Position numbers and translations under genes: made by a program | Part shown: positions 34,365 through 39,312 of the stretch, piece by piece | Numbering within the stretch: position 1 is the first letter of the stretch | Layout of the letters: each line of letters opens with the position of its first letter | From: an uncultured Burkholderiales bacterium | GTDB lineage: Bacteria; Pseudomonadota; Gammaproteobacteria; Burkholderiales; Burkholderiaceae_C | NCBI GenBank assembly: GCA_903820745.1 | Contig: CAIJIT010000178.1 | Location: 1-60,420, forward strand | Length of the DNA stretch: 60,420 nucleotides | Direction of reading: 5' to 3' | The notes under the pieces: model-generated | Database searches by the model: none | What the model was told of the DNA's origin: nothing | What the model saw: only the letters and a program-made list of their open reading frames with translations

Positions 34365-35300
34365 TTACCAGGCCGGGGCGAGTTCGGCGAATCCCGCCGG
34401 TGCCAGAGCCGCATCATCGAACGCGACGATCTCCCAGGCTTCAGGGTCGGCAAACAGCGCACACAGCAGCTTGTTGTTCAAGGCGTGGCCACCTTTGAAC
34501 GAGGTATAGGCAGCCAGCAAGGGATGACCGGCGACTTGCATGTCACCGATCGCGTCGAGGATCTTGTGCTTGACGAATTCATCGTCGTAGCGCAATCCGC
34601 CGGCATTCAGCACACGGTAGTCATCCACGACGATGGCGTTGTCCATCGAGCCGCCAAGGGTCAGGCCGCGTGAGCGCATCAACTCGATGTCGCTGGTCAT
34701 GCCGAAGGTGCGGGCGCGCGCAATCTCACGCTTGTACTGGCCGGAAGCCATGTCAAAGCTGTACTGCTGACCAGTGGCGGCAACCGCTGGGTTATCGAAT
34801 TCGATCTGGAAGTTCAGCGTATAGCCTTCATGGGGTTCGAGCCTGGCCCACATCAGCTTTTTGCCTTCGCCCTGGCTGACTTCGACCTTCTTCAGGACAC
34901 GCAGGAATTTCTTCGCTGCAGGCTGCAGGTCGATACCCGCACTCTGCAACAGGTAGACAAAGCTCGCGGCGGAACCGTCGAGGATAGGTACCTCGTCGGC
35001 GTTGATGTCGACAAAGAGATTGTCCAAGCCGAGTCCGGCACAAGCCGAGAGCAGATGCTCGATCGTCTGCACCTTGGGAGCCCCCGGGTCGCCGCCCGGG
35101 CTGATCGTGGTGGCCATGCGGGTGTCGCAGACATTGCCGACCCGCACTGGAATATCGACTGCCTGATTCAGATCGACACGGCGAAAGACGATGCCGGTAT
35201 CGGCCGCAGCCGGCCGCAAGGTCAGCTCGACGCGCTGGCCGCTGTGGATGCCGACGCCGACAGCGCGGGTCAGCGACTTGATGGTTCTTTGTTGGAGCAT
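34365..35300 (-). CDS. lpxC: UDP-3-O-acyl-N-acetylglucosamine deacetylase
   Basis: Committed step of lipid A synthesis. The 311-residue zinc enzyme shows [16 protein letters not shown] with the first zinc His, [14 protein letters not shown], and [11 protein letters not shown] with the second His and the Asp ligand, plus [12 protein letters not shown] with the catalytic His. [28 protein letters not shown] is the conserved N-terminus. It starts 11 bases after the histidine kinase stop. In many relatives it follows ftsZ directly or with a different gene between. Confidence 0.95.
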
Positions 35301-35311
35301 GACCCCGATTG

Positions 35312-36763
35312 TCAGTGATTACCCGAAGCCGCATCGTCGACCTTGTCGCGCAACACCGGCAAGCGCAGGCACAACCGGGTGCCGCCATGCGTGCTGGCAT
35401 CGATGTGCAGGGTGCCGCCAAGCCGCGCGGCCCGGCGCTGCTGGCTGCGCAGGCCCCGACCCGGCTGGGCATTGTCGACATCGAAGCCCAGGCCATCGTC
35501 CTCGACCCTGATCTCGACATAGCTGCCATGAAACCGGGTCACCATCCGGACCTTGATCGCGCGGGCATGCTTGAGTACATTGCTCAAAGCCTCCTGCAGG
35601 ATTCTCAACACATGCAAGGCATCAGGGGGTTCCAGCCAATCCAGGGACGGCAGGTCCTGGACATCCCATTCCAATGTCAAACCGCCGGCCTGCAGCCGTT
35701 TGCCCAACCGGTAGCGCATGGTCGCCAGCAGCGACACCAGGTCATGCCCGAGCGGCTCCAGCGAATCGATCACCAGACGCAGATCGTCGACGCATTCGCG
35801 CAGCACTTCGACCACCTTGTCCTGCTCCATGCTGCCCTGCTCGACCGCCACCATGGCCGACAACAGCGACGAGCCGAGGCCATCATGCATGTCCTGCATC
35901 AGCCGCTGGCGTTCCTGCAGCAAGGCGCGGGCAATTTCCGTCTCACGCGAATGCTGGATTTCGGCTTGCAGTTCAGCGCTTTGGCGGGTGAGTTGCCGGT
36001 TCAGTTCCAGCCTGCCCGCTTCGACCGCCTGCATGGTGTCGCTGAAGCGCCGCTGCACCGCGTAAAGGAATCCTGCGGCAAGCAGCAAGATGGCCAATGG
36101 CGTCATTGTTGGCTGGCCGATCCAGGCCCAGCCAGCAAACATGAACAGGTCATGCATGACCAGGGACAAGCCGGAAGTCAAGGCCAAGGCCAGCCAACGC
36201 AATTCAGCCGAGGGCTCACGCATTGCGCACCAGAGCATGTAGAGGCTGCCGACCACTGCTACCAGCAGATCAATGCCGATCTGGAACGGCCCGACATCGC
36301 TGTTCCCTGACCAGGGCAAGGTCACCAAGATTGCGCTCAGCATCAGCACAGCCATGCTGCGTTCGATCAGCGCTTGGCGCTGCCCGGCAAGCCGCAGCAT
36401 CGACAGACAGATCAGCAGGATCGAGGTCGAAGTTGCGGCTGCAGAGAACCATCTGGCCCAGGGTGACAAGCCGGCCGCCGCCGGCTCGATCAACAGGCTT
36501 GCCAATGTTGCCAGCGCGAACCAAAGATAACCCGACTCGGCACGCTGCCTCGCCCACAAGCCCAGCGAGAAAAGTCCCAGCAGCGCCACGGCACCAGCCG
36601 AGCTATTCAAACTATCGGAGGGCAGCGAGAAACCTTGCGCCCAAGCCGGCGCAGCAGACAAAACGGCGAGCAGCGCAGACCCAAAAAAAACAAGCCCGGA
36701 GCGGCAAGCAACAGGCTTCACCGCTTCGGGCTTCTGGTCGGAGCCCGTAACGGGCTCGCGCAT
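35312..36763 (-). CDS. membrane sensor histidine kinase (HisKA_3 type)
   Basis: A 483-residue kinase. A signal-like segment ([20 protein letters not shown]) is followed by about six or seven membrane helices to residue 240, a coiled-coil linker, the dimerisation/phosphoacceptor motif [20 protein letters not shown] with the phosphorylated His, and an HATPase domain ([39 protein letters not shown]). This is the NarX/LytS-like group. No response regulator gene adjoins it. The ATG overlaps the ftsZ stop by one base. A GTG at 36719-36721 is an alternative start, because an intrinsic terminator lies within codons 11-27. Confidence 0.85.
36683..36733 (-). terminator. intrinsic terminator after ftsZ, inside the kinase 5' coding region
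   Basis: On the minus strand AAGCCCGAAGCGG and CCGCTCCGGGCTT form 12 pairs with one mismatch and a 16-base loop, directly followed by G and eight Ts (36683-36690). This is the clearest rho-independent terminator in the window. It begins 30 bases after the ftsZ stop. Confidence 0.85.
36727..36757 (-). promoter_or_regulatory. competing hairpin upstream of the terminator (attenuator-like)
   Basis: Just before the terminator the minus strand has a perfect inverted repeat GAGCCCGTTACGGGCTC (36741-36757). Its second arm CGGGCT can instead pair with AGCCCG of the terminator's first arm (36727-36732) with a 9-base loop, which would break the terminator. The three pairings are mutually exclusive, as in translational attenuators. 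Confidence 0.55.
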
Positions 36764-37983
36764 CAGTCTGCCTGCTTGCGCAAGAAGGCCGGTATTTCGA
36801 TTTCGTCCATGCCGTTCGATGACAAGGCCTCAACCTTGGCTGCAGCCGTGCGGCCATGTCGCCAGACACTCGGCACGCTCAGCCCGGCATAGTCCTTGCC
36901 ACCCATGCTGCCCATACCGGTTTGCCCGACTGAAGCAATCGGCTGACCCAGCACCGGCATATTGTCGGTACCGGTGCGCAGATGCACCTGGTTTTGCTGC
37001 ACCAGCACCGGGGGCTGCTGGCGAACTCGCGGCGAAGACAAGCCGGTTGCGATCACCGTAACGCGCAAGGCATCACCGAGACTTTCGTCATAGGCCGTGC
37101 CGTAAATGATATGAGCCTCATCGGATGCATAGCGCTTGATCGCATTCATCGCATTGCGCGATTCGCTCAGCTTGAAGGTATTGCGGTTGGCCGCGATCAG
37201 CACCAGTACGCCGCGCGCGCCGGAGAGATCAATGCCTTCTAGCAAGGGGCAGGCGACCGCAGCTTCGGCAGCTTTGGTCGCGCGATCCGGGCCGCTGGCT
37301 TGCGCCGTACCCATCATCGCCTTGCCTGGCTCGCTCATCACCGTCTTGACGTCTTCAAAGTCGACGTTGACGAGACCTGGAATATGGATGATGTCCGAAA
37401 TGCCGCCAACGGCATTCTTCAGCACGTCATTCGCATGGGCGAATGCCTGATCTTGTGTGACATCATCACCGAGCACATCAAGCAACTTGTCATTCAGCAC
37501 GACAATCAGCGAATCGACATTGGCCTCGAGTTCGGCCAAGCCTGCATCCGCAGCCTTGGAACGTCGAATACCCTCGAAATCGAATGGTTTGGTGACCACG
37601 CCGACCGTGAGGATGCCCATCTCCCGGGCCACCCTTGCGATCACCGGCGCAGCGCCAGTACCCGTTCCACCCCCCATACCGGCGGTAATGAACAGCATAT
37701 GCGCGCCCTGGATTGCATCGCGGATCCGCTCCTCGGCTTCAATTGCTGCCGCCTTGCCCATCTCGGGTTTGGCGCCTGCACCCAGGCCTGAAGTTCCCAA
37801 TTGCAGGAGTTGATCCGCTTTGGAGCGGTTCAGGGCCTGGGCATCGGTATTGGCGCAGATAAATTCCACACCCAGCACGCCTTGAGCAATCATGTGCTCA
37901 ACTGCATTACCGCCGCCGCCTCCAACCCCGATTACCTTGATTTGGGTACCTTGGTCAAACTCTTCGATCATCTCGATCGCCAT
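36763..37983 (-). CDS. ftsZ: cell division GTPase FtsZ
   Basis: The 406-residue tubulin homologue that forms the Z ring. It has GVGGGGGNAVEHMI at the N-terminus, the GTP signature GMGGGTGTGAAPV at about residue 105, and the T7-loop region. The C-terminal tail DEIEIPAFLRKQAD is the peptide that binds FtsA and ZipA. TAAGGAG precedes the ATG. The 99-base gap to ftsA is AT-rich and purine-rich, unlike the rest of the cluster, and may hold an ftsZ promoter, but no clear consensus is seen. Confidence 0.97.
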   Translation of the reverse strand: MAIEMIEEFDQGTQIKVIGVGGGGGNAVEHMIAQGVLGVEFICANTDAQALNRSKADQLLQLGTSGLGAGAKPEMGKAAAIEAEERIRDAIQGAHMLFITAGMGGGTGTGAAPVIARVAREMGILTVGVVTKPFDFEGIRRSKAADAGLAELEANVDSLIVVLNDKLLDVLGDDVTQDQAFAHANDVLKNAVGGISDIIHIPGLVNVDFEDVKTVMSEPGKAMMGTAQASGPDRATKAAEAAVACPLLEGIDLSGARGVLVLIAANRNTFKLSESRNAMNAIKRYASDEAHIIYGTAYDESLGDALRVTVIATGLSSPRVRQQPPVLVQQNQVHLRTGTDNMPVLGQPIASVGQTGMGSMGGKDYAGLSVPSVWRHGRTAAAKVEALSSNGMDEIEIPAFLRKQAD

Positions 37984-38082
37984 ATAATTTCTCCTTAAGC
38001 AATTGTGCCGTCAATAACTGCGAAAAACCATAGAAATCAAAATTTATTTTTGCTTTTTTCTCGTTTTTCCCGAATTCCTGAT

Positions 38083-39312
38083 TCAAAAATTCCCCAGGAA
38101 CCAATCCTTCGCCCGTCCGAACATTGTTTTCATCGAACCAGCCTGCTGTGCCGCCTTCAAACCCCGGGTGCGCGACAACCTCGCCTCCTCCAGTAAACCC
38201 ATTACCGTCGCCGAACGTGGATTTGCCACCATGTCGGATAAAGCGCCACCATAAGTGGGATTACCACGACGAACGGGTTTCAGAAATATGTCCTCCGCCA
38301 ACTCGACCATGCCCGGCATCACCGCCGAACCGCCGGTCAGGACAATCCCCGAGGACAACAATTCCTCGTAGCCGCTTTCCCTGATGACCTGGTGCACCAG
38401 CGCAAATATTTCTTCGACCCGCGGCTCGATCACCCCCGCCAGCGCCTGTTTGGACAGCATCCGCGGCGCCCTGTCACCCAAGCCCGGGACTTCGACCTGA
38501 TCGGCCGGATCGGCCAGCAACTGCTTGGCCACACCATATTCAACCTTGATTTCCTCAGCGTCCTTGGTCGGCGTGCGCAAGGCCATCGCAATGTCGCTGG
38601 TGATCAAGTCACCGGCGATGGGAATCACTGCGGTATGGCGAATCGACCCTCCGGTGAAAATCGCCACATCGGTGGTACCGGCGCCGATGTCGACCAGCGC
38701 CACACCGAGATCACGCTCGTCGTTGGTCAGCACCGCCAGGCTTGAGGCGCTCGGGTTGAGTACCAGCTGATCGACCTCGAGGCCGCAACGGCGCACGCAT
38801 TTGACGTTGTTCTCGGCCGCGCTCTGGGCGCCGGTGACGATATGCACCTTGACCTCGAGTCGGCCGCCGCTCATGCCGATCGGCTCCTTCACCTCATGGC
38901 CGTCGATGACGAATTCCTGCGGCTCGACCAGCAGCAGACGCTGGTCGTTCGGGATATTGATCGCCTTGGCGGTCTCCACCACCCTGGCCACATCGACCGG
39001 CGTGACCTCCTTGTCGCGCACGATCACCATACCGGTTGAGTTCTGCCCGCGTATATGGCTGCCGGTAATACCTGTGAAAACCCGGCTGATCTTGCAGTCA
39101 GCCATCATTTCGGCCTCTTTCAAGGCCTGCTGAATCGATTGCACGGTGGCGTCGATATTCACGACCACACCGCGCTTGAGGCCATTTGATTGCGCCACGC
39201 CGAGACCGGCGATGCGTAACTCGCCATTGCCCAGGACCTCGGCGACCACAGCCATGATCTTGGCAGTGCCAATATCGAGACCTACGACAAGATCCTTGTA
39301 TTCTTTGGCCAT
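38083..39312 (-). CDS. ftsA: cell division protein FtsA
   Basis: A 409-residue actin-like ATPase that tethers FtsZ to the membrane. Phosphate loops are in LVVGLDIGTAKIMAVV and ALVDIGAGTTDVAIF, and the 1C domain lies between. The C-terminal amphipathic membrane helix is in MKTMFGRAKDWFLGNF. Start M39312 (MAKEYKDLVVGLDIG) is set by the family and by a nearby GAAGAGAA. The open frame extends about 60 codons upstream into the ftsQ end without similarity. Confidence 0.95.
   Translation of the reverse strand: MAKEYKDLVVGLDIGTAKIMAVVAEVLGNGELRIAGLGVAQSNGLKRGVVVNIDATVQSIQQALKEAEMMADCKISRVFTGITGSHIRGQNSTGMVIVRDKEVTPVDVARVVETAKAINIPNDQRLLLVEPQEFVIDGHEVKEPIGMSGGRLEVKVHIVTGAQSAAENNVKCVRRCGLEVDQLVLNPSASSLAVLTNDERDLGVALVDIGAGTTDVAIFTGGSIRHTAVIPIAGDLITSDIAMALRTPTKDAEEIKVEYGVAKQLLADPADQVEVPGLGDRAPRMLSKQALAGVIEPRVEEIFALVHQVIRESGYEELLSSGIVLTGGSAVMPGMVELAEDIFLKPVRRGNPTYGGALSDMVANPRSATVMGLLEEARLSRTRGLKAAQQAGSMKTMFGRAKDWFLGNF

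Follow-up and report, generated by a model that had tools for sequence, protein, structure and literature searches.

The window analysed here, a 60,420-nt stretch of DNA from an uncultured Burkholderiales bacterium, carries on its minus strand an ftsZ gene (36763..37983; 406 aa with Tubulin and FtsZ_C domains), a histidine kinase ORF (35312..36763; 483 aa) and lpxC (34365..35300; 311 aa), with the kinase sitting between ftsZ and lpxC. The kinase ATG (36763-36761) overlaps the TGA stop codon of ftsZ (36765-36763) by sharing its last base, as an earlier note on this DNA had described, and the four short arms that this note placed at the start of the kinase frame lie where it put them. Arm 1 (GAGCCCG, 36757-36751) and arm 2 (CGGGCTC, 36747-36741) form a small stop-proximal hairpin on the minus strand (hairpin 1, GAGCCCG-TTA-CGGGCTC, 36741..36757, -12.6 kcal/mol), and arm 3 (AAGCCCG, 36733-36727) and arm 4 (CGGGCTT, 36698-36692) close a stronger one, followed by a single G (36691) and then by a tract of eight T residues (36690-36683). 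Between arms 3 and 4 lies a further stem that was overlooked in the first reading, and the whole minus-strand hairpin (36692..36733) reaches -26.1 kcal/mol. This element thus has the layout of an intrinsic terminator, with a stable G+C-rich hairpin, then G and T8, and the T8 tract (36683..36690, minus strand) falls inside kinase codons 25-27 (Val-Phe-Phe), codons 22-27 corresponding to arm 4 plus the T tract. Pairing of arm 2 with arm 3 (CGGGCT with AGCCCG, 9-nt loop, hairpin of -11.0 kcal/mol) is also possible, as had been claimed, and in the window sequence the terminator and antiterminator pairings are mutually exclusive, as in trp-type attenuators.

The 89-nt stretch that holds these elements folded at -42.5 kcal/mol (z -3.99) and beat 200/200 dinucleotide shuffles, indicating that the hairpins are more than chance. 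A generic terminator scan over 15 kb returned 13 sites where 12.0 were expected, which does not exceed chance, so that a single site means little and the case for a terminator rests on conservation among relatives. No Rfam family reached its gathering score in 36000-38200, where the three matches were all microRNA models below that score. A presumed Rfam motif named 'ftsZ-DE' had no match in the same interval, and among the matches listed by a literature search for that name there were only apparent chance word matches. The idea that terminators with exactly these arms are a common genome repeat was also dropped, as only 3 occur in the genome.

We searched 59 related genomes, and additionally named genomes, and the results place the window among Roseateles/Paucibacter-like Burkholderiales. 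We used 34 loci at which an ftsZ gene is followed by this kinase, namely the window (L001), L016, L018 and the named L031-L061. The window arrangement is shared only by L031 and L032, which are contigs of genomes G014 and G017 and whose kinases are 88% and 87% identical to that of the window; at the remaining 31 loci, kinases are about 51-66% identical in the best segment. Using a strict search, a hairpin with a T tract was found to begin at most 110 nt from the ftsZ stop in 29/34 loci, and the gene-end position of the terminator is kept in relatives although its sequence differs, with changes that preserve pairing between the terminators of L034, L036, L039 and L040 (judged by eye). At L033, L044, L050 and L057, the hairpin is strong (-26 to -36 kcal/mol) and the T tract weaker. 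At L018 (genome G024), no convincing terminator was found after ftsZ, a looser rule giving a -16.5 hairpin with a poor tail that was not counted; there, the kinase frame opens 8 nt past ftsZ in another lineage.

The stretch between the ftsZ stop and the terminator is itself structured in relatives. Over 31 loci, its mean z against shuffles was -1.61, whereas the coding sequence just ahead of it gave +0.39 (p 1.6e-7) and a control segment at +170 gave +0.19 (p 6e-6; both by paired test), and an earlier structure run had given z below -2 in 15/33 loci. A hairpin of -9 kcal/mol or better lies between stop and terminator in 24/30 loci. The near-identical L031 and L032 were left out of the 31-locus test, L018 was excluded from both structure runs for want of a terminator, and terminator starts were set by hand for 12 loci in both runs. 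Both the small 1:2 hairpin and the strong 3:4 terminator of the earlier note are supported, as structures kept in relatives. One possible role of the stop-proximal structure is to hold the terminating ribosome away from the terminator; alternatively, it may be part of a 3'-UTR RNA.

The kinase of the window differs from those of its relatives at its N-terminus. It has a HATPase_c domain (39.5 bits, against a cut-off of 26.4) and a weak HisKA_3 match, and it is without the long N-terminal region of the relatives: 7TMR-DISM_7TM was not listed for it and was above cut-off in 5/5 relatives scanned, and its alignments with the 31 more distant loci begin no earlier than residue 39. Judged by its sequence, the window kinase is a 7TMR-DISM relative that has diverged or lost parts. 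Ahead of the matching segment, the open frame spans 222-448 residues in 30 distant loci and only 125 in L048, whose upstream part is short, whose likely kinase start lies about 40 nt past the terminator, and which looks like an intermediate stage.

The kinase frame of the window extends backwards across the terminator as far as the ftsZ stop, and in-frame starts are found at offsets 0 (ATG), 42 (GTG), 102 and 153 (TTG), 174 (GTG) and 204 (TTG) from the ATG. The GTG at codon 15 (36719..36721, minus strand) lies inside the terminator hairpin and would give a typical signal peptide by eye, and the starts at offset 102 and beyond lie past the terminator (TTG at 36661 and 36610, GTG at 36589). Starting at the ATG or at this first GTG gives an N-terminus that resembles a signal peptide and ends in AWAQ (by eye), whereas later starts do not; the first 43 codons (36635..36763, minus strand) then comprise a terminator-derived part followed by the signal-peptide-like segment. 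The kinase could alternatively start at one of the TTG or GTG codons past the terminator, and the overlap would then merely be an open frame, as it seemingly is in 11 other loci. In 19/34 loci the kinase frame is closed until past the terminator, so that the kinase must start beyond it there. Outside the window clade, the frame is open over all or part of the terminator in 11 loci (L034, L035, L037-L040, L048, L050, L056, L057 and L061), most of which, when inspected by eye, have a signal-peptide-like start further downstream; none could be seen for L038 and L061. After the ftsZ terminator, 11/34 loci (L016, L033, L035, L037, L038, L044-L047, L049 and L051) carry the sequence TGTGGCATGCT, which would correspond to an extended -10 promoter; it is absent from the window, even allowing one mismatch, and no kinase promoter was found in the clade.

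Within the three genomes of the clade, the overlap is almost invariant. Only 1/80 post-stop sites varies, compared with 40/323 in the kinase sequence that follows (p 0.0015), and this sole variable site is in the apical loop. The 44 segments of 80 nt in which no more than one site varies all belong to one single run over this element, with starts from -23 to +20, the mean number of variable sites per segment being 10.2. When the kinase genes of the window genome (G000) and G014 were compared, no third position differed in codons 1-27 (0/27), where a single amino acid was changed; codons 28-55 had 2/28 third-position differences and six amino-acid changes, and 81/428 third positions (19%) differed in codons 56-484. 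At 19% per codon, the chance of 0/27 is about 0.3%, and the lack of third-position changes in codons 1-27 points to a constraint on the nucleic acid. The near-perfect conservation extends to the spacer and the loops, beyond what a plain terminator would require, and it would be compatible as well with a regulatory RNA or with constraint on the N-terminus of the protein.

According to the earlier note, arms 2 and 3 would serve as an antiterminator. The arms are invariant within the three-genome clade, leaving no covariation to score there, and when they were compared among relatives, the 2:3 pairing did not appear to be selected: over 30 loci, the arm 2:arm 3 duplex averaged -8.59 kcal/mol within species and -9.17 kcal/mol across species. 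A rougher first run over 32 loci had given -9.57 and -9.49 kcal/mol, respectively. The window duplex (-11.7) was equalled or beaten by 26% of cross-species pairs (27% in the first run), and the 2:3 complementarity is unremarkable since both hairpins share the same AGCCCG/CGGGCT stem. Several hairpins were over-extended in the first run, which kept L031 and L032 and in which L018 and L052 yielded no arm pair; the repeat used mainly strict terminators and counted the clade once, L031, L032 and L018 being left out and L061 giving no arm pair.

Folding of the nascent window RNA with arm 1 blocked favoured 2:3 until arm 4 emerged and the terminator thereafter (P34 above 0.9), the terminator still winning at equilibrium. 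As a control we used an E. coli trp leader sequence, which has arms 1-4 with the AGCCCG/CGGGCT type of stem seen in the window, and its folding behaviour, including that at equilibrium, was the same. Equilibrium folding was consequently dropped as a disproof of attenuation, since folding alone neither shows nor excludes it; the pairing probabilities of 0.85 (window) and 0.5 (trp control) are not comparable, as the arm definitions set ceilings of about 0.86 and 0.6. Unlike the trp leader, the window has no leader peptide with regulatory codons, and its arm 1 begins at the third codon of the very ORF that would be controlled. Reading by eye, we saw no leader ORF with regulatory codons and no stalling signal before the terminator; the ORF that follows ftsZ across the arms is the kinase itself.

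A comparable arrangement is the ribosome-mediated attenuation of bmrBCD in Bacillus subtilis (PMC4191407), where a terminator-like structure with a predicted alternative anti-terminator pairing is located in coding sequence ahead of the genes under control, and where reporter fusions showed control responding to ribosome-targeting antibiotics. There, a separate upstream ORF, bmrB, carries the structure, whereas here there is no leader ORF and the structure is a predicted one. Compared with intrinsic terminators in general, the element after ftsZ has the same G+C-rich hairpin and T tract and is present in relatives; it differs in that, in the clade, it falls within the beginning of the downstream ORF, such that a kinase start at the ATG or GTG would make its T tract coding. 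A literature search, to which subscription journals were mostly closed, found nothing on ftsZ-lpxC attenuation, on an 'ftsZ terminator' or on antiterminators of ftsZ or the dcw genes, and the main text of a paper found through a general search on overlapping terminators (PMC7815308) mentions neither ftsZ nor lpxC.

The other end of the kinase gene bears on lpxC. On the minus strand, a -10-like element, GACAAT (35308..35313), stands 7 nt before the lpxC ATG and downstream of the ftsZ terminator, and we propose a leaderless start there. Among 46 lpxC loci (33 of the kinase type and 13 further family members, L183-L195), a [TG]ANAAT hexamer ends 4-9 nt ahead of the lpxC start in 39, and the same test slid upstream averaged 0.2 positive loci, with a maximum of 1. 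It failed in seven of the 46, four of which have GACACT, and ahead of ftsZ it was positive in 10/39 loci. These sequences suggest leaderless lpxC transcription in the family; a literature search on leaderless lpxC found no relevant paper. At one locus (L189, genome G023), the ftsZ-lpxC gap is only 9 nt and the TAA stop of ftsZ is part of a TAAAAT element before lpxC.

The -10-like pattern was also considered as a signature specific to lpxC and rejected, as it has matches in 39/59 genomes and before other genes too, 9/30 loci inspected holding lpxC; a control with the pattern reversed had no match in most genomes, G010 and G024 being exceptions with 5-9 per strand. The element has the appearance of a promoter in general use, from which transcripts would have a short leader or none at all. 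The dcw operon of Burkholderia cenocepacia (PMC7761207) also has a gene between ftsZ and lpxC, there encoding a thioredoxin reductase, and RT-PCR gave no product across ftsZ and this next gene, nor across the next gene and lpxC; no intrinsic terminator was predicted after ftsZ in that species, unlike in the window. The earlier note had proposed that translation of the division genes sets lipid A synthesis through lpxC. Considering the promoter-like element of lpxC itself and the B. cenocepacia RT-PCR results (PMC7761207), this step is unlikely, and so is a control of lpxC by the ftsZ terminator.

Combining the computed structures, their conservation, the synteny, the overlap and the lpxC motif, we infer the working of the predicted terminator, the kinase start and the mode of kinase and lpxC transcription as follows: with a probability of about 0.8, this is an ordinary conserved ftsZ terminator onto which a shortened kinase gene slid in one small clade, and the terminator stayed under selection despite the coding overlap. 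The 3' end of ftsZ would have a small post-stop hairpin followed by a strong intrinsic terminator, at which the division-gene mRNA would end, and in most relatives the 7TM histidine kinase would begin past this terminator, in some of them with a promoter-like motif in between. In the window clade, the kinase would have lost its long N-terminal sensor region together with the spacer, and its best-looking start and signal peptide would thereby fall in the terminator, with codons 22-27 made from the last arm and the T tract. The 2:3 complementarity would be a by-product of the stem common to both hairpins. Kinase mRNA would arise from partial read-through, possibly aided by ribosomes restarting at the overlapping ATG, or else from an unseen promoter inside ftsZ, and lpxC would be transcribed from its own promoter directly ahead of its ATG. 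Several points speak against this reading: the invariance in the clade includes spacer and loops, the kinase could start at a TTG or GTG past the terminator, no kinase promoter was found in the clade, the 15-kb terminator scan did not exceed chance, the B. cenocepacia operon is without a predicted intrinsic terminator after ftsZ (PMC7761207), and nascent folding with arm 1 blocked favours 2:3 until arm 4 emerges.

This folding behaviour, shared with the trp control, together with an exact geometry and the high conservation in the clade of the entire stretch, hairpin 1 and spacer included, is what could be expected from the ribosome-mediated attenuator of the earlier note, in which a ribosome at the ftsZ stop or kinase ATG would cover arm 1, 2:3 would form, the terminator would fail and the kinase (and lpxC) would be transcribed. 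We nevertheless regard such a device as very improbable, considering that the 2:3 pairing is no stronger than across species, that a short leader ORF or control codons were not seen in the stretch read, that lpxC has its own promoter-like element, and that a ribosome finishing ftsZ should itself reach arm 1, which would leave little off state during ftsZ translation. Restricted to the kinase, attenuation is possible, with a low probability.

A simpler translational relief, in which ribosomes restarting at TGATG would trail RNA polymerase and melt the terminator such that kinase output is proportional to ftsZ translation with no 2:3 switch, is a tentative possibility; it is compatible with the terminator reading rather than exclusive of it, and would fit the overlap of the kinase ATG with the ftsZ stop, the frame that is open through the terminator in 3/3 clade genomes and the lack, in the window, of the promoter-like motif of the relatives, although translation may instead begin at the GTG within the hairpin or at a TTG or GTG further on. 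If termination was relieved only by ribosomes restarting at the ATG, with or without 2:3, the kinase would act as a readout of FtsZ synthesis while the same bases encode its signal peptide, and we consider this stricter coupling unlikely. It is rather improbable that the ftsZ 3' UTR, made of hairpin 1 and the terminator with its U tail, is released as a small RNA for which the structure has been kept: the structured stretch ahead of the terminator across 31 loci and the U-rich tail would suit this, but hairpin sequences differ widely among species and no Rfam family reached its gathering score in 36000-38200.

If the reading as a conserved terminator overrun by a shortened kinase gene is right, it exemplifies how a terminator at the end of a gene may turn into coding sequence and still keep its function as RNA, alongside an apparent intermediate (L048) and a contrasting terminator-less lineage (L018). 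In this group, lpxC would then be separated from division-gene transcription, which bears on the idea of a coupling between division and lipid A synthesis at the transcript level.

Two further observations concern FtsZ itself. A VIT/VWA-domain protein encoded elsewhere in the window genome (G000:C308:652-2664, plus strand; loci L132 and L229) contains an internal copy of a segment of the FtsZ linker, GGKDYAGLSVPSVWRHGRTAAAK, that is identical to that of the window FtsZ while its DNA differs, and it has the C-terminus AEIPAFLRKQAD, close to the FtsZ C-terminal peptide (EIPAFLRKQAD). A relative that is 93% identical (G014:C120:2416-4443, locus L230) ends in DDVEIPAFLRRQARQTGCGSL; where the linker copy would be, it carries a PAVWR motif. 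From these peptides, the protein looks like a mimic of the FtsZ tail, and a literature search found nothing on such a mimic. Among the 59 related genomes, full-length matches occur in G000 and G014 only, the partial ones being a 34-residue edge match in G017 and N-terminal matches of 24-30% in G057, G022 and G031; the search for the tail peptide covered 18 genomes of the genus. Finally, genome G034, from a member of the same family, carries a tandem pair of ftsZ-like genes (G034:C1:3288501-3291076), which are 73% and 68% identical to the window FtsZ.
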